Below, one piece after another: positions 10,984 through 63,345 of a stretch of DNA of 64,000 nucleotides. The notes beneath the pieces were generated by a model. It was not told the origin of the DNA. It saw only the letters and a list, made by a program, of their open reading frames with translations, and searched no databases. Source of the stretch: Apostichopus japonicus (taxonomy: Eukaryota; Echinodermata; Holothuroidea; Aspidochirotida; Stichopodidae); NCBI RefSeq assembly GCF_037975245.1, contig NC_092563.1, forward strand, positions 27,987,960-28,051,959, written 5' to 3'. A program made the position numbers and the translations under genes. The first letter of the stretch is position 1; each line of letters opens with the position of its first letter.

Positions 10984-11056
10984 GCCTCGTTGGCGCAGTC
11001 GGCAGCGCGTCAGTCTCATAATCTGAAGGTCGTGAGTTCGAGCCTCACACGTGGCA
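10984..11056 (+). tRNA. tRNA-Met (anticodon CAT, elongator type)
   Basis: A 73-nt cloverleaf with no intron: acceptor 5' GCCTCGT, D arm TGGCGCAGTCGGCAGCGCG, anticodon loop with CAT in TCTCATAAT, T arm GTGAGTTCGAGCCTCAC, discriminator A. The A box (TGGCGCAGTCGG) and B box (GTTCGAGCC) are intact. The acceptor stem has one T-T mismatch at the fourth pair (GCCTCGT against ACGTGGC), which weakens the stem slightly. A TTTTT run follows 11 nt downstream. It closely resembles metazoan elongator tRNA-Met. Confidence 0.95.
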
Positions 11057-11142: not shown

Positions 11143-12058
11143 ATTGAATAATAATAATAATAAGACTTATAATGCGCACACACCACTCAAAGAATGTTCA
11201 TGGCGCAAATGACAATGAGAAATGATACAAATAATACAGAATAATACAAAACAATGACAGAAGAAAAACTTAATGGTATAAGATCATATAAAAGCTTTTG
11301 TCATTAAGTGGGATTTTATGCTCTTCTTAAAGTTAGAGAGAGTAGATGTTTTTCTGATTTTTAAGGGAAGTTGGTTCCATAAGCAAGGGGCAGAAACAAT
11401 AAATGACCTATCCCCCCAAGAATGTTTGGACTTAATTTCAGATAATAAAATTGAGAGCTGGATCTTAGATTACGAGAGGGGACATAAATATGTAATAAGT
11501 CAGAAATATACATTGGACCATGTCCTTTAAGTGATTTATAAACAATAAGGAGAATTTTATACATAATACGATATTTTACAGGTAGCCAGTGCAGGTTTTT
11601 TAAGACAGGTCGGATATGACAATGCTTATGAGAATGAGTTACAATACGTGCAGCTGAGTTTTGGATTAATTGGAGTCTATGAATCTGTTCATGTGGAAGA
11701 CCGAGGAGTAAGGAATTGCCCATATCCAACCTTGAAGTGATAAAAGAATGTACAATTTGTTCAGTTGCCTTATCATTTAAATAGTTTCGTAATTTGTAGA
11801 TTCCTCTGAGATGAAATGCAGCAGAACTTGTTATTTTGGAAATGTGGCGTTTCATAGACATATTGGAATCGAAAATTACACCAAGATTACGCGCATGAGT
11901 GGAAGGGCGAACCTGAACATTACCAATTGATATGAATGGAATATTAATTTTAGCAAGCTGATGACAAGAACCAAAAACTCAGTTTTTTCTTCATTAAGCT
12001 TCAAAAAATTACGTCTCATCCACAAACGGAATAGTGGGTCTGCTAATCAACACCGATC
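11143..12058 (-). pseudogene. CR1-like LINE fragment: 3' end of reverse transcriptase, frameshifted
   Basis: Two reading-frame blocks on the minus strand. The upstream block (about 12058-11980) contains the CR1-typical WMRRNFLKLNEEKTEFL. After a frameshift, the downstream block reads NLGVIFDSNMSMKRHISKIT and continues to 11361 with ARIVTHSHKHCHIRPVLKNL then HWLPVKYRIMYKILLIVYKS. This is the end of the RT domain plus the post-RT region of CR1/L2/Jockey-type elements. The 5' end is truncated, there is no endonuclease, and the 3' end finishes in an (ATT)n tail near 11143-11160. A dead insertion between the tRNA and GFOD. Confidence 0.85.
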
Positions 12059-13332: not shown

Positions 13333-14469
13333 TTAAAAAAGAGAAAAATCATCTCCATTTTCTTTATGTAAATCAACGTTTTCCCACTGTCCTGATTTAT
13401 TGGAAACCCTAATGGCGTCTAAGACTGTCTGAATGTACAGAGCATCTTCAAATGTTGCTGCAAATGTGATCGGTTCTGGATCCCAATTTAAACGTTCCTT
13501 CCTCCTTTCAAATGACTCTTTTAAGACATCAATTAACTTTAGAAGACCTTTATGGTATAAGACTGGTAACTCTGGAATAGACTGCAAACTGTATTTTTGT
13601 TTTTCAGGTATATGTTGAATATCTGCAAGCAGGAGCTGTTCTCTGGGCATGGATGCAGTCTGTCCGTGCAGATCGGCATCTCTTATCAATAACCTCCCGT
13701 CTGAACCAATAATTAGGACCTCTTGTCGGAACTGACCGGGCACGTGGGTATTGAGCGTGATGGTGGCTGTGGCACCACGGCTCAGCTCAGCTTGGAAAGT
13801 GCAAAAGTCATCACTTGTGATGTGCCTGATGCCACTTATACAGTCAGTCTGTTTGACAAATGTTTTCAGCATTCCTCTCACCTTAACTATTTTCTCTCCT
13901 GTGAGGAAAGTTATGATGTCGATGATGTGTGGGCCTATAGTGTTCAAAACCCCACCACCCATGTTCTCATCACAGCTCCAGTTGTACTTGTCTCCAAGAA
14001 GGCTCCCACAAGACATCTTAATATCACAAAGGAAAACATCTCCAATCTCTCTGTCCTGAATCATTTTTTTGGTCCTAAGGTAAGACGGTAAGAATCTAAG
14101 CCCCAGGGTCATGACCGACATTAAGGATGGGTAATACTGTGCAGCTGTCACCATCTTAACAGCGTCCTCTTTCTTCAGCCCTGGAGGACGCTCGCAGAGG
14201 ACATGCTTACCAATACTGAGAGCATTCGAAGCCACCTGAGAGTGAAGATGGGGAGGGCAGGTCACCCAAACAAGATCGACTTCTTGATGCAGTAAAACAT
14301 CTTCTATCTTATCTGTGTGGAATGGAATTCGAAAATGTCGAGCTGTCTCGGTTGCTTGTTCCAGAGTTGGTCCCCAGATTGCAACAACTTTGATACCGAC
14401 TGAGTGAAGGGTGGATAACAGGAGATTAGTAAGTGGTCCTGTACCCACAACTCCAACTCCCTCTAGCAT
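13333..14469 (-). CDS. GFOD: Glucose-fructose oxidoreductase domain protein (GFOD1/2-type)
   Basis: 378-residue protein, close to the vertebrate GFOD1/GFOD2 length of about 385-390. The N-terminal Rossmann fold begins at residue 4 (GVGVVGTGPL). DVLLHQEVDL is at 57-66, AAQYYPSLMS at 109-118, KYNWSCDENMGGG at 161-173, then LLKTFVKQ and ITSDDFCTF near 200-225, all matching GFOD signatures. The usual Gfo/Idh/MocA EKP motif is replaced by CERPP (92-96), in line with the atypical active site of GFODs. KYNWSCD looks more GFOD1-like, but invertebrates usually have one GFOD, so I do not assign 1 or 2. The substrate is unknown. The start is the MLEGVG methionine. Forty-four upstream in-frame codons are discounted because an acceptor (TATTTAAACAG) lies 4 nt before this ATG, indicating a non-coding 5' exon. 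Confidence 0.95.
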   Translation of the reverse strand: MLEGVGVVGTGPLTNLLLSTLHSVGIKVVAIWGPTLEQATETARHFRIPFHTDKIEDVLLHQEVDLVWVTCPPHLHSQVASNALSIGKHVLCERPPGLKKEDAVKMVTAAQYYPSLMSVMTLGLRFLPSYLRTKKMIQDREIGDVFLCDIKMSCGSLLGDKYNWSCDENMGGGVLNTIGPHIIDIITFLTGEKIVKVRGMLKTFVKQTDCISGIRHITSDDFCTFQAELSRGATATITLNTHVPGQFRQEVLIIGSDGRLLIRDADLHGQTASMPREQLLLADIQHIPEKQKYSLQSIPELPVLYHKGLLKLIDVLKESFERRKERLNWDPEPITFAATFEDALYIQTVLDAIRVSNKSGQWENVDLHKENGDDFSLF

Positions 14470-14636
14470 GATTCTGTTTAAATACCAAACCAGCCGATAT
14501 GAAAACCTGTGAATAATCAATGTGAGAAAAATGTCAAAAGGCATTCTAAGTTTCTGAGGTAACTCAATTACTTTTACTATAAATTTCTGTTCAGTAAACA
14601 AATTAACACTGAGATGGCAATTTTATCATAAAGAAA

Positions 14637-23050: not shown

Positions 23051-23165
23051 CACTGAGTAAATCTAGAATAGCGCCCCCTCCTGTAGACTGATCCTGATTA
23101 GGCTGCATTGTTGGAATGGAAGGAATTGTTCCACTGTCACCGATCAGGTCCAAAAGACCGTTACT
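23051..23165 (-). CDS. AP1G1: AP1G1 exon 17 (hinge, clathrin-box-like motifs)
   Basis: 115 nt, phase 0 in and 1 out. SNGLLDLIGDSGTIPSIPTM, then PNQDQSTGGGAILDLLS. It contains two LLDLL-type boxes, as in human ANDLLDLLGGN ... GGELLDLLGD, which bind the clathrin terminal domain. Acceptor TTTCCTGCAG, donor GTAGGT. Coding sequence resumes here after the 4.5-kb intron containing the satellite array. Confidence 0.95.
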
Positions 23166-23299
23166 CTGCAGGAAACAACAGATGCATATTCAACGTAAAC
23201 CATAATAATCCATTAAACGTTTCTTACTGTTTACACTGTAGAAAATCAAAGGTACACATTTTAAACATACATAAAGATTTGTAAAAGAGAGATAAATAT

Positions 23300-24020
23300 T
23301 AAGAAGAACCCACTTATTACGGATATAAGTGTATTTATCTTCTTTATTTTGTTTGTCATTTCTTATTTGTTTGTTTTGTTTTTGTTTTGTTCCTTTTTAT
23401 TATTATTATTATTATAATAATGAAACGAAATACTACTTCAGGAAAGAAGCTTCAAAAGCCTAACAATACAGCAAGGTCTTGTATTGAAGGAAATTTAAAT
23501 AGATAAATTAAATAAAATACATGAAAACCTTAATTAGAAAAGTGTTTTAATAAAGTTTAATGTTGTCAAATGTTTGTCATTTAAATATAATCAATTCTAA
23601 TGCTGCAAGCCTTTGCATCTATACTTCACTTATTATGCTATTTTAAGAGACTTGCTTTGTTGGTTATGTACTCAATTGCAGCTTAGTGAACCTTGTTCCA
23701 TTACACAGCTATACTAACTCATGCAATAGTTGTCACTGTTGTCCAAAAGATCTTGCTATTCAAACTTGAGCCCAAAACATCTTTTTCATCTCTCAGTCCA
23801 ACTTAACTCAAATTTCTTTTCTCACATGTTCACAAAAAGTCAAGATAGCATGCTTGGTATACTAAGTGACAGAATGGAAAAATGAAGGATGCCAGAGAAA
23901 AAAGAAGAAAAAAAACAGGTTGTTTACCAAAGATAGCATCCCTTGGTGGGAAAAATTGGGAAGGGTTTGTTCGTTTTATAGTTATTTAGAATACAAATAT
24001 GGCTCAATATGATCATTTAT
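23300..24020. other. AP1G1 intron 16-17, unique part
   Basis: AT-rich intron sequence between exon 17 and the satellite array, with (TTA)n near 23398-23418. No exon or named repeat seen. Confidence 0.5.
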
Positions 24021-24027
24021 ACAGACC

Positions 24028-27000
24028 TAAACCCGAGCTGCTCTTTTTATTGTGTTTTTTTATCGCTGTGTATCTGTGTACGTTTTTTACATATTTGTTG
24101 ATATAAACAATACCTCATGTTGCTGTGCTATGTTGATCATCCTAAACCCCTAGCTTCTCTTTTGATTGTGTTTTTTATCGCTGTGTATGTGTTTTTTACA
24201 TATTTGTTGATATCAACAATACCTCATGTTGCTGTGCTATGTTGATCGTCCTAAACCCCTAGCTTCTCTTTTGATTGTGGTTTTTTATCGCTGTGTATCT
24301 GTGTATGTGTTTTTTACATATTTGTTGATATCAACAATACCTCATGTTGCTGTGCTATGTTGATCGTCCTAAACCCCTAGCTTCTCTTTTGATTGTGGTT
24401 TTTTCCCTGTGTATCTGTGTATGTGTTTTTTACATATTTGTTGATATCAACAATACCTCATGTTGCTGTGCTATGTTGATCGTCCTAAACCCCTAGCTTC
24501 TCTTTTGATTGTGATTTTTTACAGCTGTGTATATGTGTATGTTATATTTACATATTTGTTGATATAAACAATACCTCATGTTGCTGTGCTATGTTGATCG
24601 TCTTTAACCCCTAGCTTCTCTTTTGATTGTGTTTTTTATCGCTGTGTATGTGTTTTTTACATATTTGTTGATATAAACAATACCTCATGTTGCTGTGCTA
24701 TGTTGATCGTCCTAAACCCCTAGCTTCTCTTTTGATTGTGTTTTTTATCGCTGTGTATGTTTTTTACATATTTGTTGATATCAACAATACCTCATGTTGC
24801 TGTGCTATGTTGATCGTCTTTAACCCCTAGCTTCTCTTTTGATTGTGTTTTTTATCGCTGTGTATGTGTTTTTTACATATTTGTTGATATAAACAGTACC
24901 TCATGTTGCTGTGCTATGTTGATCGTCCTAAACCCCTAGCTTCTCTTTTGATTGTGTTTTTTATCGCTGTGTATGTTTTTTACATATTTGTTGATATCAA
25001 CAATACCTCATGTTGCTGTGCTATGTTGATCGTCCTAAACCCCTAGCTTCTCTTTTGATTGTGGTTTTTTATCGCTGTGTATCTGTGTATGTGTTTTTTA
25101 CAAATTTGTTGATATCAACAATACCTCATGTTGCTGTGCTATGTTGATCATCCTAAACCCCTAGCTTCTCTTTTGATTGTGGTTTTTTCCCTGTGTATCT
25201 GTGTATGTGTTTTTACATATTTGTTGATATCAACAATACCTCATGTTGCTGTGCTATGTTGATCATCCTAAACCCCTAGCTTCTCTTTTGATTGTGTTTT
25301 TTTATCGCTGTGTATCTGTGTATGTTATATTTACATATTTGTTGATATCAACAATACCTCATGTTGCTGTGCTATGTTGATCATCCTAAACCCCTAGCTT
25401 CTCTTTTTATTGTGTTTTTTTATCGCCGTGTATCTGTGTATGTTATATTTACATATTTGTTGATATAAACAATACCTCATGTTGCTGTGCTATGTTGATC
25501 ATCCTAAACCCCTGGCTTCTCTTTTTATTGTGTTTTTTTATCGCTGTGTATCTGTGTATGTTATATTTACATATTTGTTGATATAAACAATACCTCATGT
25601 TGCTGTGCTATGTTGATCATCCTAAACCCCTAGCTTCTCTTTTGATTGTGATTTTTTACAGCTGTGTATCTGTGTATGTTATATTTACATATTTGTTGAT
25701 ATCAACAATACCTCATGTTGCTGTGCTATGTGGATCATCCTAAACCCCTAGCTTCTCTTTTGATTGTGGTTTTTTATCGCTGTGTATCTGTGTATGTGTT
25801 TTTTACATATTTGTTGATATCAACAATACCTCATGTTGCTGTGCTATGTTGATCGTCCTAAACCCCTAGCTTCTCTTTTGATTGTGGTTTTTTCCCTGTG
25901 TATCTGTGTATGTGTTTTTTACATATTTGTTGATATCAACAATACCTCATGTTGCTGTGCTATGTTGATCATCCTAAACCCCTAGCTTCTCTTTTGATTG
26001 TGGTTTTTTCCCTGTGTATCTGTGTATGTGTTTTTTACATATTTGTTGATATCAACAATACCTCATGTTGCTGTGCTATGTTGATCATCCTAAACCCCTA
26101 GCTTCTCTTTTGATTGTGATTTTTTACAGCTGTGTATCTGTGTATGTTATATTTACATATTTGTTGATATAAACAATACCTCATGTTGCTGTGCTATGTT
26201 GATCATCCTAAACCCCTGGCTTCTCTTTTGATTGTGTTTTATTATCGCTGTGTATCTGTGTATGTTATATTTACATATTTGTTGATATAAACAATACCTC
26301 ATGTTGCTGTGCTATGTTGATCATCCTAAACCCCTAGCTTCTCTTTTGATTGTGTTTTTTATCGCTGTGTATGTTTTTTACATATTTGTTGATATAAACA
26401 ATACCTCATGTTGCTGTGCTATGTTGATCGTCCTAAACCCCTAGCTTCTCTTTTGATTGTGGTTTTTTCCCTGTGTATCTGTGTATGTGTTTTTTACATA
26501 TTTGTTGATATCAACAATACCTCATATTGCTGTGCTATGTTGATCGTCCTAAACCCCTAGCTTCTCTTTTGATTGTGGTTTTTTCCCTGTGTATCTGTGT
26601 ATGTGTTTTTTACATATTTGTTGATATCAACAATACCTCATGTTGCTGTGCTATGTTGATCATCCTAAACCCCTAGCTTCTCTTTTGATTGTGATTTTTT
26701 ACAGCTGTGTATCTGTGTATGTTATATTTAAATATTTGTTGATATAAACAATACCTCATGTTGCTGTGCTATGTTGATCGTCCTAAACCCCTAGCTTCTC
26801 TTTTGATTGTGTTTTTTATCGCTGTGTATGTTTTTTACATATTTGTTGATATCAACAATACCTCATGTTGCTGTGCTATGTTGATCGTCCTAAACCCCTA
26901 GCTTCTCTTTTGATTGTGTTTTTTATCGCTGTGTATGTGTTTTTTACATATATGTTGATATCAACAATACCTCATGTTGCTGTGCTATGTTGATCGTCTT

Positions 27001-27658
27001 TAACCCCTAGCTTCTCTTTTGATTGTGTTTTTTATCGCTGTGTATGTGTTTTTTACATATTTGTTGATATAAACAATACCTCATGTTGCTGTGCTATGTT
27101 GATCGTCCTAAACCCCTAGCTTCTCTTTTGATTGTGTTTTTTATCGCTGTGTATGTTTTTTACATATTTGTTGATATCAACAATACCTCATGTTGCTGTG
27201 CTATGTTGATCGTCCTAAACCCCTAGCTTCTCTTTTGATTGTGGTTTTTTATCGCTGTGTATGTGTTTTTTACATATTTGTTGATATCAACAATACCTCA
27301 TGTTGCTGTGCTATGTTGATCGTCCTAAACCCCTAGCTTCTCTTTTGATTGTGTTTTTATCGCTGTGTATGTGTTTTTTACATATTTGTTGATATCAACA
27401 ATACCTCATGTTGCTGTGCTATGTTGATTGTCCTAAACCCCTAGCTTCTCTTTTGATTGTGTATTTTATCGCTGTGTATGTGTTTTTTACATATTTGTTG
27501 ATATCAACAATACCTCATGTTGCTGTGCTATGTTGATCGTCCTAAACCCCTAGCTTCTCTTTTGATTGTGTTTTTTATTGCTGTGTATCTGTGTATGTGT
27601 TTTTTACATATTTGTTGATATCAACAATACCTCATGTTGCTGTGCTATGTTGATCATT
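24028..27658 (-). repeat. About 113-bp satellite array whose unit contains the exon 16 end and splice donor
   Basis: Thirty-two tandem units of about 105-121 bp. The conserved plus-strand core is ATACCTCATGTTGCTGTGCT, then ATGTTGATC, CCTAAACCCCTAGCTTCTCT and a T-rich spacer, ending in a near-perfect 16-bp palindrome TTGTTGATATCAACAA. Unit core starts lie near 24114, 24221, 24341, 24457 ... 27514 and 27631. At least three spacer types occur (TTTTTTATCGCTGTGTATG; TTTTTTCCCTGTGTATCTG; ATTTTTTACAGCTGTGTATC). The rightmost unit is AP1G1 exon 16 itself: its last 27 coding bases and GTATTG donor equal the unit core, so all other units are intronic copies of an exon-donor boundary. Confidence 0.97.
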
Positions 27659-27772
27659 TCTCCCTTCTGTGGTGCACTGATTTGATCATCCAGTAATTCT
27701 CCATTGTTCCTAGGTAGATCGTCCTCATCCACTTTCTTCTCTATTGGAGGCATCTTCTCTAAGAGACCGGCT
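27631..27772 (-). CDS. AP1G1: AP1G1 exon 16 (trunk-hinge junction; 3' end is a satellite unit)
   Basis: 142 nt, phase 2 in and 0 out: AGLLEKMPPIEKKVDEDDLP then RNNGELLDDQ and ending MINIAQQHE. LLEKMPPIEK corresponds to human LLERMPVMEK. Acceptor AATTTCAG, donor GTATTG. The last nine codons coincide with the unit of the adjacent intronic satellite. Reading past the donor meets a stop 11 codons later (VLLISTNM then TAA), so use of a more distal copy of the donor would truncate the protein. Confidence 0.93.
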
Positions 27773-28178
27773 CTGAAATTAATAATTAATAATAATAAAT
27801 AAATAATAACACAGAATGATCAGTAAAGCACCTGGGGCATCTGCAATGACCTGTGAACACAAATTTTGAGATTCAAAATGCAAAGTAAATGCTTAAATTG
27901 ACTTTGTTGGAAAGATTGAGACTGTAGATCAAAGTGCATGATGGACTTACAACCGACGCCAAATCTAACAACGTCTTAGAAATTTATCTACGTTCTTTGG
28001 CTTCGACCAATTTATGCATTATGACATACTTTTCACATCTAACAAATCGGTAGGAGTTAAAAACACTCAAGATATATATATATATATATCAAAACCTATC
28101 ATTTTGGTTTGATGATGATGGAATTTCATACAAATTTCAATTGTTCTGTAGTATTTGTCAAGAACTTGTCGGACATAC

Positions 28179-28283
28179 CTCATGTTGTCGTGGTCTCGTA
28201 ATAAAGCCTGGAATTCTACTGAACGCTGCTGTAACTCCATGTCAAGACTCTGCGTGTAGGGCATAACAGCTAACTTGATTTTC
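28179..28283 (-). CDS. AP1G1: AP1G1 exon 15 (trunk)
   Basis: 105 nt, phase 2 in and out: KIKLAVMPYTQSLDMELQQR then SVEFQALLRDHDNM, matching human [22 protein letters not shown]. Acceptor CTCACCAG, donor GTATGT. Its end AACATGAG|GTATGT resembles the exon 16 end. Confidence 0.95.
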
Positions 28284-31764: not shown

Positions 31765-31848
31765 TTGAGGGAGAGGGTGGGTTATGAAGTCAGAGGGTGG
31801 ATTATGAAGTCAGAGGGGGTGGATTATGAAGTCTGAGGGTGACTAGTG
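31765..31848. repeat. Short tandem repeat GTGGATTATGAAGTCAGAGG
   Basis: Three to four copies of a 24-27 bp unit of the form GAGGGTGGATTATGAAGTCA, directly downstream (in transcription direction) of the possible long form of AP1G1 exon 13. Confidence 0.8.
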
Positions 31849-31938: not shown

Positions 31939-32028
31939 CTGGATGGGCTCTTCCTCGTCAACCACGCCGGCCACCAACAAATCTCCAAATTCCCCGATAC
32001 ACCACGTAGCAACCTGTGCCAGTGGTTG
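31939..32028 (-). CDS. AP1G1: AP1G1 exon 13 (trunk)
   Basis: 90 nt, 30 codons, phase 0: [20 protein letters not shown] then [10 protein letters not shown]. Human: [20 protein letters not shown] ... EEEEPIQ. Acceptor TTTGTTACAG, donor GTACGT. A second in-frame donor lies 78 nt further on (see the extension at 31861-31938). Confidence 0.96.
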
Positions 32029-34661: not shown

Positions 34662-35132
34662 TTCCCCCCACTCCCCACCCCTCTCCCCCCACTCCCCACC
34701 CCTCTCCCCCACTCCCCACTCCTCTCCCTACCCCACTCCTCTCCCCCAACCCACTCCTCTCCCCAACCCACTCCTCTCCCCCAACCCACTCCTCTCCCCA
34801 ACCCACTCCTCTCCCCAACCCTCTCCTCTCCCCAACCCACTCCTCTCCCCAACCCACTCCTCTCCCCCAACCCACTCCTCTCCCCAACCCACTTCTCTCC
34901 CCAACCCACTTCTCTCCCCAACCCACTCCTCTCCCCAACCCACTCCTCTCCCCAACCCACTCCTCTCCCCCAACCCACTCCTCTCCCCCAACCCACTCCT
35001 CTCCCCCAACCCACTCCTCTCCCCCAACCCACTCCTCTCCCCCAACCCACTCCTCTCCCCCAACCCACTCCTCTCCCCAACCCACTCCTCTCCCCAACCC
35101 CCACCTCTCCCCAACCCCCACCTCACTCCTAC
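34662..35132. repeat. Minisatellite CCCCAACCCACTCCTCT (17-18 bp units)
   Basis: About 26 near-identical units of CTCCCCAACCCACTCCTCTC with a C-rich flank, within the 1-kb AP1G1 intron 9-10. The strand asymmetry is almost complete: pyrimidine plus A on the plus strand, and GGGG-rich (GGGGAGAGGAGTGGGTT) on the transcript strand, so G-quadruplex or triplex structures are possible. The long ORFs here in several frames (PTHSSP, GEEWVG repeats) are products of the repeat and not genes. Confidence 0.97.
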
Positions 35133-35323
35133 CCAAGCAGATGATTATTAAGAAAAAAGGGGTTTGGTATCTCTAATTATCACCAATGGAAACCATACCC
35201 GAAAACAGTTCAAAACTAAATCCTGTGCAACCACTTTATATACAACCAAGGTCGTCAGTCTAACATTAATCTACGGCCTGGGAGGGAGCCAAGGAATGGA
35301 AATAGCTCTTCATAGTTTCAAAC

Positions 35324-42499: not shown

Positions 42500-42707
42500 C
42501 TGGAAGAACAAAGACATCGACACAATGAAGTGGAAGTAGAAAGCAGCTTCGTTTCATTTTTAAATGGCAGAGCTACCACCACGGATTACTATTCTTCTCT
42601 GCACCATCAGGCAGAGTTTGGTAAAGCCATAATATTATCGGCAACTTCTGAGGCAATGTCTCTCTCCATTGTTTTGCTTCTTTTGTTTGTATATTACTGT
42701 TGATGGG

Positions 42708-42985
42708 ATGGGGGCAGTGATGGGAGCAGGGATGGGAGCAGGGATGGTCGGATGGGAGCAGGGATGGTCGGATGGGAGCAGGGATGGTCGGATGGGAGCA
42801 GGGATGGTCGGATGGGAGCAGGGATGGTCGGATGGGAGCAGGGATGGTCGGATGGGAGCAGGGATGGTCGGATGGGAGCAGGGATGGTCGGATGGGAGCA
42901 GGGATGGTCGGATGGGAGCAGGGATGGCAGGATGGGAGCAGGAATGGGAGGATTTGAGCAGGGATGGTAGGATGGTAGCAGAGAA
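42708..42985. repeat. Minisatellite GGGATGGTCGGATGGGAGCA (20-bp unit)
   Basis: About ten identical or nearly identical 20-bp units in the centre with degenerate units at both ends (GGGATGGCAGGATGGGAGCA, GGGATGGTAGGATGGTAGCA). Located in AP1G1 intron 4-5. Open frames in this block (MVGWEQGWSDGS repeats) are repeat artefacts. Confidence 0.97.
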
Positions 42986-59402: not shown

Positions 59403-59835
59403 GAGGTAAACACCATGTTAAGTGAGAGTTCCTGGAGCAGCATAAGAGCGAAAATTACACGTTTCCTTCAAACAGGTAACTATAAAGGTCACAATTCTGA
59501 AATCTAATATTCATCTATTTTGCCAGGTGTTCCAATCCGCGAGATACTGTATTTAATAAGTTGTAGCTGCATATGTTGTCATTTTATCAATCTGTGAAGT
59601 TACAGTGCCAAGAGAATATGATACCTTCCAATTTTTTATTTTTTTTATTTTCAAGATAGATTGCCATCACTAGGTTATGTTCATGGCTTCAATATTTCAT
59701 ATTAAGCGTTTGCAAAATCCTCCATTACAGAAAAAAGGACATTGTGATAAATAAGGAAACATCTAAAAAGTGGAAGCACTTGTGGCTTGATGATGCCATA
59801 GTTTTGTGTATGTGTGTATGTGTATTTTAGATCCT

Positions 59836-59925: not shown

Positions 59926-60019
59926 TTTACGTTTTTTAACGTTTTTAGCCTTTTTTAAGTCCTCTGCCTTGTGTGAGAAAATATCCTGGGATATCTCCGA
60001 AATGAAATGAGGTTTTCCC

Positions 60020-60897
60020 CGAACTCAGAATTCTTGGCTGATAGGTTCTCCCTGCTGTGAAAAGATTTTGGGCGTAAAAATCGACAATGTATTATCTTGG
60101 AATGAACAAGTCGATTCTGTTTGCAAGCTCGTTTCCAGTAGATTGGCTCTTCTTAGACGCATAAAACCATTCATTGATACCAATACTTGTATTCTATTTT
60201 ATAATGGATATATTTTACCGATGGTTGAGTACTGTAGTTTAGTATGGGGAAACAGTAATGCCAGAAATGTTCTCAGACTTAGTCGTTTACAGAAAGCTGC
60301 AGCAAGAATTATTCTCAATGCAACATTTGATGATAGATCTAAAGACCTTTTTAAAACTTTAAACTGGTCCTCACTTGAAAAACGTTTAAAATGTAAAAGA
60401 TTGACAATGGTGTATAGGTCTTTAAATGGTCTGGCTCCACAGTATGTTGTGGAAATGTTCCGCCACACAAATGATATACATAACTACTCTCTAAGGTCCA
60501 CCACACGAAATAATTTATTTTTAGAGGGTGGTAATACCCAGTATCACCAGAAAACGTTTTCATATCTTGCTGCAAAGGAATGGAACAAATTATCAAAGGA
60601 GTGTAAGAATGCCAAGTCTTTAAATACTTTTAAACGTTCTATGCAGGACTTTAACTAATTTATTATGCTCTTAATTTCTTTTAATTGATTGTTCCATGTT
60701 GTATTTTATGTAATGTAAATTTTTATTTTCATTGTCGTCTTATCTTAATTTATTTTATTATTGTTATTTTTATTATTTTATATGTTTATATTTTTTCATT
60801 TCACTATTTGTTATTTTACTTCAGGGCCTCGGGGGAGATTAGCTTTACGCTAACCGAGTTACCCTTTAATGTTAAATAAATATTGATAAACTTTAAG
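60020..60897 (+). pseudogene. L2/CR1-like LINE fragment: 3' end of reverse transcriptase ORF and tail
   Basis: An open frame of about 200 codons ending at 60658 reads EKILGVKIDNVLSWNEQVDS, CSLVWGNSNARNVLRLSRLQ, KAAARIILNA, LTMVYRSLNGLAPQYV and LAAKEWNKLSKECKNAKSLN. This is the post-RT C-terminal region of Jockey/CR1/L2-group elements. It is 5' truncated with no catalytic RT core or endonuclease. The 3' tail has CGGGGGAGATTAGC/GCTAACCG hairpin-like sequence and ends ATGTTAAATAAATATTGATAAA. The frame is intact, so the insertion is probably fairly young. Confidence 0.88.
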
Positions 60898-62311: not shown

Positions 62312-62739
62312 TCATATCACCCTGTTTTTGTATTGCTCTTTTTTCCTCTTTAATACTTCAACTGTGCTCTCTTTCCTCCTATCCTTCATATCTTCATCGT
62401 ATAACTTCCTCACATGCATTTTCAGTTGGTCTATATTCGTCTTGAACTTTGCTGAGAGGCCTATCACTGGTATATCGACCCTCTCTTGTAACCCTGAGAG
62501 ACTGCTCTGAGATTCGGGCAGGTCTATTTTATTTCCGATGATAGCGTGAGGCCTCTCGGAGAGATGAGGCTGGTATTGTTCAAGTTCATACTGCAGATGT
62601 GTAAACTGGTCCCAAGGGTCCTTCTGGGATAAATCGATGACATAGAGGAGACAGAGGCATCGGTCAATATGACGCAGGAAGGAGTGACCGAGGCCTTTAT
62701 TCAGATGAGCTCCTGGAATCAAGCCAGGAATGTCAGCAA
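62312..62739 (-). CDS. MTG2: Mitochondrial ribosome-associated GTPase 2 (Obg family), last coding exon
   Basis: C-terminal 141 residues plus stop; the exon enters after the first base of a codon (probably V). It starts ADIPGLIPGAHLNKGLGHSF with the G3 motif D-I-P-G, followed by LRHIDRCLCLLYVIDLSQKD, the G4 motif NKID (IIGNKIDLPES) and G5-like LSAK. YELEQYQPHLSERPHAI matches human MTG2 (GTPBP5), which acts in late assembly of the mitochondrial large ribosomal subunit at the inner membrane. The Lys/Arg-rich tail (RRKESTVEVLKRKKEQYKNR) is longer than I recall for vertebrates. Acceptor CATTTCTGACAG. Upstream exons (Obg domain, P-loop) must lie beyond the right edge. Confidence 0.93.
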
Positions 62740-63345
62740 CTGTCAGAAATGAGAAACAGCAAAGTTTTAATATTATTAACTCAGAATTTTTATTTTTTTA
62801 TTATTGTCATCTTTAATGAGGGTAGTCCTGCTCAGTGCAGAAGCACTGCTTCCCAGAGGAGCACTCAATACAAAAATACATATACAATATTATGCAGTAG
62901 AAAAACGTTAAATATCCAAAAGCACCAAAAGGCCGGGAAAAAGATAGACAAACAAATATCAGACATCTAAACAAAATATATAAGTTTTCATATTGCGTTT
63001 AAAAATATTAACATTTGGCAAGCATTTCAAATTTGGGGGAAGACTGTTATATATAATCAAAGGGAGGGGTTAATGGATAAGGTAACTGCCTTCTTTTGGG
63101 GTGGATGGAGAAGGGGTGAGAGGGGTTTAGAAGACTGGCATCACAGCACAAGATCTGCTCCTATATGAAAGCATTGGACCAAACCAGGTTTGTCATCACA
63201 AAGAATCTGAGATGCGACTGGAACCATTTAATCCTTAAGGAAGGAAAGAAATAACCTGGAAGCCGAGAGGCCCTTTGATTCCTTGCCACATTCTGCATTT
63301 TGATTTTTCATCAAATTTTTACTTTTGTGTTATCTTGTTTACAAA

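Follow-up and report, generated by a model that had tools for sequence, protein, structure and literature searches.

The closest described system to the array considered here is in the human CBS gene, where a 31-bp VNTR straddles the junction of exon 13 with intron 13 and is written c.1444_1467+7(16_21) (PMC2630376). We read that notation as 24 coding bases plus seven intronic bases, present in 16 to 21 copies, so that each copy would carry a donor. The donor of one of the later repeats can also be used in splicing CBS mRNA. A larger number of repeats is linked to lower activity (PMC5188458). No other array of an exon end and its donor was found in the literature searched, the scope of which excluded most subscription journals.

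An array of this form is present in the AP1G1 gene of the sea cucumber Apostichopus japonicus, an echinoderm, within the 64,000 nucleotides of DNA (contig positions 27987960-28051959) that were analysed here and are called the window. A first-pass annotation of this DNA knew of no described case in an adaptin gene. That may hold for the adaptins, but the form itself is known from human CBS (PMC2630376). CBS and AP1G1 share one architecture: a unit made of the last coding bases and the first intron bases, a donor in every copy (expected for CBS from the notation), and base differences between units (PMC2630376, PMC5188458). The CBS unit is 31 bp and its array, by arithmetic, about 0.5-0.65 kb in total, whereas the AP1G1 units are 107-118 bp long, the array is 3.6 kb, and its unit apparently combines two parts of a single exon. 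Length alleles and a link to enzyme activity are described in those same sources for CBS (PMC2630376, PMC5188458) and so far not for the AP1G1 array.

Other systems resemble the locus in part. Intron gain by tandem duplication also involves a duplication across an exon-intron boundary that duplicates the splice signals; there, however, a new intron results, whereas none is seen in AP1G1, where protein comparison makes the junction look ancestral. The VNTRs of ABCA7 (PMC5954066) and TERT (PMC3948165) are likewise intronic tandem arrays with an effect on splicing, but a donor-bearing copy of an exon end is not mentioned in the brief descriptions consulted. The Helentron-carried arrays of oyster (PMC7492417) are short, satellite-like and dispersed, in contrast to the AP1G1 array, which was detected at a single place.

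The AP1G1 exon and its tandem array

Exon assembly and translation placed 18 AP1G1 coding exons on the minus strand of the window, from 44992 to 21128, running from the MPAPIRL exon through the stop codon. The translated product is contained in P0001, a database entry that may itself be a predicted protein and that NCBI annotates as AP-1 complex subunit gamma-1-like isoform X2 of A. japonicus; P0001 departs from it by 13 extra residues at the N-terminus and, following EEPIQ, by an alternative piece of 26 residues. Isoform X2 in the database runs past a short donor at 31939, so competing donors are seemingly used elsewhere in AP1G1 too. Among other features of the window, minus-strand open frames at 13333-14622 and 62312-62797 carry, respectively, GFO/IDH/MocA oxidoreductase domains and a 50S ribosome-binding GTPase domain. 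The frames at 11361-11978 (minus) and 60011-60658 (plus) look by eye like the ends of retrotransposon reverse transcriptases and have no Pfam match at 0.001. A tRNA-Met (CAT) gene at 10984-11056 is the sole Rfam match, and comparison with viral contigs gave no match to the window sequence.

The exon of interest (27631..27772, minus strand, 142 bp) holds the start of the hinge and reads AGLLEKMPPIEKK...MINIAQQHE, a peptide present in P0001. It was called exon 16 by the first-pass annotation; the exon itself stands, and its number depends on where counting starts, being the 14th of the 18 placed here when counted from the MPAPIRL exon. Its acceptor is ttaatttcag and it ends in phase 0 at the donor GAG/GTATTG (the slash marks the exon boundary), its 3' end reading ATGATCAACATAGCACAGCAACATGAG/GTATTG. 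The intron upstream is 406 bp. The host intron downstream (23166..27630, minus strand, by exon assembly) is 4,465 bp and begins with the first donor, GTATTG, at 27625..27630 on the minus strand. Beyond it lies the next exon (SNGLLDLIGDSG..., 23051..23165, minus strand), identified by exon assembly, and P0001 contains the first donor joined to this exon.

The last 27 coding bases, encoding MINIAQQHE (27631..27657, minus strand), open unit 0 of the array, as was claimed earlier together with 31 further copies, and the count is borne out. By TRF and unit alignment the array occupies 24026..27657 on the minus strand and consists of 32 units of 107-118 bp over about 3.6 kb; TRF alone reports 32.0 copies at 24026-27655 with 92% matches. 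The exonic 27-mer ATGATCAACATAGCACAGCAACATGAG has 32 matches in the window at no more than three mismatches (12 exact, 18 with one and two with two), and 100 shuffles gave none. The repeat unit runs from a coding exon end into an intron start, with no gap between the array and the actual exon. The array has its precise starting point at ATGATC inside the exon and stops at 24026, just behind GGGTTTAGG. A GT donor stands in register with the exon end in every unit (GAG/GTA in 32/32); the donor 9-mer is GAG/GTATTG in 31/32 units and GAG/GTACTG in one. The full junction CAACATGAG/GTATTG is kept in 30 of the 32, in agreement with the earlier statement that nearly all copies keep it, and one unit has CAATATGAG.

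The 32 units fall into 25 distinct types with a mean pairwise identity of 95.9% over ungapped positions. Some types recur at separated places in the array, and the mean number of differences dips between units that lie 19 apart (6.15, vs 7.42 for neighbours); both are marks of unequal exchange. Best local alignments beyond the distal end were no better than those of shuffles, giving no indication of diverged extra copies there, and the unit has no homology to the sequence further up into the exon's acceptor, since 926 of 1000 shuffles scored as well. Three further tandem arrays were detected by TRF in other AP1G1 introns, at 34663-35135, 42705-42981 and 31771-31841, with units of 7-21, 12-20 and 20-22 bp, respectively; none overlaps a placed exon.

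Another part of this exon also seems to be present in the unit. Its stretch CAAAAGAGAAGCTAGGGGTTTAGGACGATC resembles an interior segment of the exon, CAATAGAGAAGAAAGTGGATGAGGACGATC (27717..27746, minus strand), found by local alignment and assessed with shuffles: 24 of 30 bases match on the same strand. Over all of its 37 columns the alignment has a score of 34. In sets of 20,000 shuffles this score was reached once with dinucleotide-shuffled exons, once with dinucleotide-shuffled units and never with codon shuffles, for a match picked out among ten region-and-strand tests. Among 638 tiles of the window it ranks second, behind a CA-rich match, and nhmmer did not report it. In the simplest reading of the consensus, the founding unit would have been a copy of the second half of the exon, minus 65 bases between two GATC sites, plus 66 intron bases. 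A different resemblance was set aside. The exon preceding the 142-bp exon also ends CAACATGAG/GTAT (28175-28187), a 13-base match to the array junction in a different frame; there the stretch CAACATGAGGTAT encodes NMR, matches to it at one mismatch or fewer are expected about 0.18 times per window, and it was taken as chance plus a shared donor signal.

Donor choice behind a single acceptor

We consider it highly probable that a local tandem array was born in place, in the A. japonicus lineage, out of the last part of an AP1G1 exon (its 3' end) and the opening bases of the intron that follows, that the coding junction is ancestral and older than the array, and that splicing has stayed at copy 0. 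Unequal exchange would have expanded and homogenised the array to its 32 units, and the exon end and donor carried by each unit would thereby be passive copies.

The first-pass annotation had the spliceosome facing some 32 equivalent donors. They are equivalent as 9-mers, 31 of the 32 being identical, but not in position: the exon is 142 nt long with the first donor and 259 nt with the second, and under exon definition the upstream site is the expected choice. With its exon bases, the first donor matches CAGGTAAGT at five of nine positions, tied lowest among the 15 of 17 AP1G1 donors compared. Given a weak donor whose copies are nearly equal in sequence, position should decide, and with an upstream intron of 406 bp and a host intron of 4,465 bp exon definition is expected. 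In exon-defined minigenes with identical competing donors, only the upstream site was used; when both donors were weakened (GAG/guguca), smaller exons kept the upstream choice and larger ones were mostly skipped (PMC9225289). Those data come from cell transfections with human-derived rules, and genome-wide the same study puts the preference for the upstream site at only 60% where two donors are nearly equal in strength (PMC9225289). The spliceosome would define a 142-nt exon that reaches from its acceptor to copy 0, the closest donor, and copies 1-31 would be intronic decoys. The join of the first donor to the next exon in P0001 agrees with this, and it is most likely that AP1G1 is still spliced at the first copy, presumably to the exclusion of the others.

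Occasional use of a decoy would be unproductive. Any distal donor would add VLLISTNM and then a stop, which is the same for all of them because all read through the first unit; the earlier claim of a stop within 11 codons holds and can be made exact, the stop being the ninth codon after GAG. For donors 1-5, the five computed, it would lie 90-524 nt before the exon junction, a distance that predicts decay of the distal product, and the mRNA would probably be degraded after encoding eight extra residues. A search for the read-through protein found none at E<=0.001 among 15 candidates, a weak negative, given that decay or clustering would hide the product.

The same facts can be turned toward a working role for the extra donors, in which they soak up U1, or make unproductive mRNA that tunes the level of AP1G1, or bind U1 that blocks early polyadenylation in a long intron. 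The identity of 31/32 donor 9-mers, the weakness of the donor (5/9) and the single truncated protein made by all distal products, with its decay signal predicted for five donors, would suit such a device. The comparison of alignment columns does not favor it: with the terminal unit left out, 5/33 exon and donor columns are variable vs 19/85 elsewhere in the unit (Fisher p=0.45), so that stronger conservation of the distal donors was not seen in this comparison, which is compatible with weak constraint. The weak negative for the read-through protein counts in the same direction, as do the folds of three stretches (z -1.32, -0.25 and -2.31), which are inconsistent with one another; a hairpin around the donor was rejected on this ground. 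The extra donors give no indication of being under selection, and we regard a working role for them as unlikely.

Origin of the array

The exon end and its donor were most likely amplified in place. In the 671.58-Mb genome (671,581,487 bases), the junction 25-mer has 32 matches at no more than three mismatches, and all 32 lie in this array; a control pattern had none. Likewise, a 121-base unit query gave 32 matches, all within the array, and the exon's 115 bases before the array occur once in the genome. The genome search scores the best candidates only and skips very common words. Within the 64-kb window, nhmmer found no copy of the unit elsewhere at E<=100; the best match of the unit outside the array, 28 bases at 59805-59832, is CA-rich low-complexity sequence and was discarded. 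Thus, neither the junction 25-mer nor the unit query revealed the copies at other loci expected of a genome-wide satellite family, nor the dispersed copies expected of a transposon-borne array. With every genome match of these two queries inside the array, a genome-wide satellite is not supported, and the term used in the first-pass annotation was too broad: matches are found only in this AP1G1 intron, and the array is local and minisatellite-like.

Comparison with relatives suggests that the exon end is the older partner. In P0004 of Holothuria leucospilota, the segment from LLEKMP to the junction is of equal length and aligns without gaps, ending ISSIQQRE before SNGL; the alignment of P0004 with A. 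japonicus reads ...KADHISSIQQRE/SNGLFDLIG against ...KGEMINIAQQHE/SNGLLDLIG, with the junction placed in relatives by protein alignment rather than from their genes. Four of the last nine residues are shared with Holothuria (I, QQ and E), so peptide identity is in itself weak evidence. An E precedes the junction in all 16 of the proteins P0001-P0016, P0001 included, 12 of which are named as echinoderm or hemichordate. The comparison took 22 of the 44 proteins found, and among the six beyond P0001-P0016 five had no match to the pattern; P0018, a more distant match, has D in place of E before SNN at an apparently equivalent position. As to whether the intron is new, the E common to these 16 proteins speaks at the protein level only. 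On this comparison the exon end seems to predate the array.

The first-pass annotation had offered two origins, an amplified exon end or a captured satellite monomer, and it is the first that these results favor. In the second, a pre-existing satellite or transposon-borne array would have been inserted and one monomer taken over as the exon end and donor. Such an event would account for the exact match of the exon to the array from ATGATC onward, and the 9-mer AAATGATCA at both array ends (24010-24018 and 27651-27659, minus strand) could be a target-site duplication, although an equal-length match occurs in 25 of 2,816 random 40-mers of the window (0.9%). Capture was set aside on two grounds, the lack of any other genomic copy of the junction 25-mer at up to three mismatches and the conserved exon length in Holothuria. 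The final E of 16/16 proteins and the unit's confinement to the array within the window also count against it, and we consider it very unlikely. That the array's length or existence is an assembly artefact, tandem arrays being error-prone, is scarcely credible for 3.6 kb with 25 distinct types in 32 units, which the PacBio reads (mean 14.7 kb) of a 671.60-Mb HiFi assembly of A. japonicus (PMC10344927) would span if, as its size suggests, it is the assembly used here.

The exon end as a possible living member of the array

The coding exon end might itself be a living member of the intronic array, homogenised with the decoys by gene conversion and unequal exchange. The hinge part MINIAQQHE of AP1G1 would then evolve by satellite dynamics and not as ordinary coding sequence, a proposal that we hold to be possible and rather doubtful. 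In its favor, 11 intronic copies agree with the exon copy at all 27 bases, whereas drift has left the second piece derived from the exon at 24/30. The terminal distal unit u31 (24026..24140, minus strand) differs from its nearest neighbor in sequence by six changes in gapped alignment, counted as substitutions plus gap runs, and the exon-side unit u0 by three; this sets the exon side apart from the free edge. The other 30 units, however, differ by 0-3 with a median of 1, so that u0 stands at the top of their range. Also against the proposal, the last nine residues of the exon differ from Holothuria at 5/9 positions and the preceding nine at 6/9. Purifying selection, or recent growth at the exon-side end, would look like homogenisation.

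The AP1G1 array adds an echinoderm case to the one documented human precedent. It provides a natural test of donor choice, in which 32 near-identical donors lie behind one acceptor and differ almost only in position, and reads counted for each copy would give a direct measure of the distance rule. A local array has seemingly been born from the edge of a coding exon, and the exon may in turn be homogenised by its own decoys.
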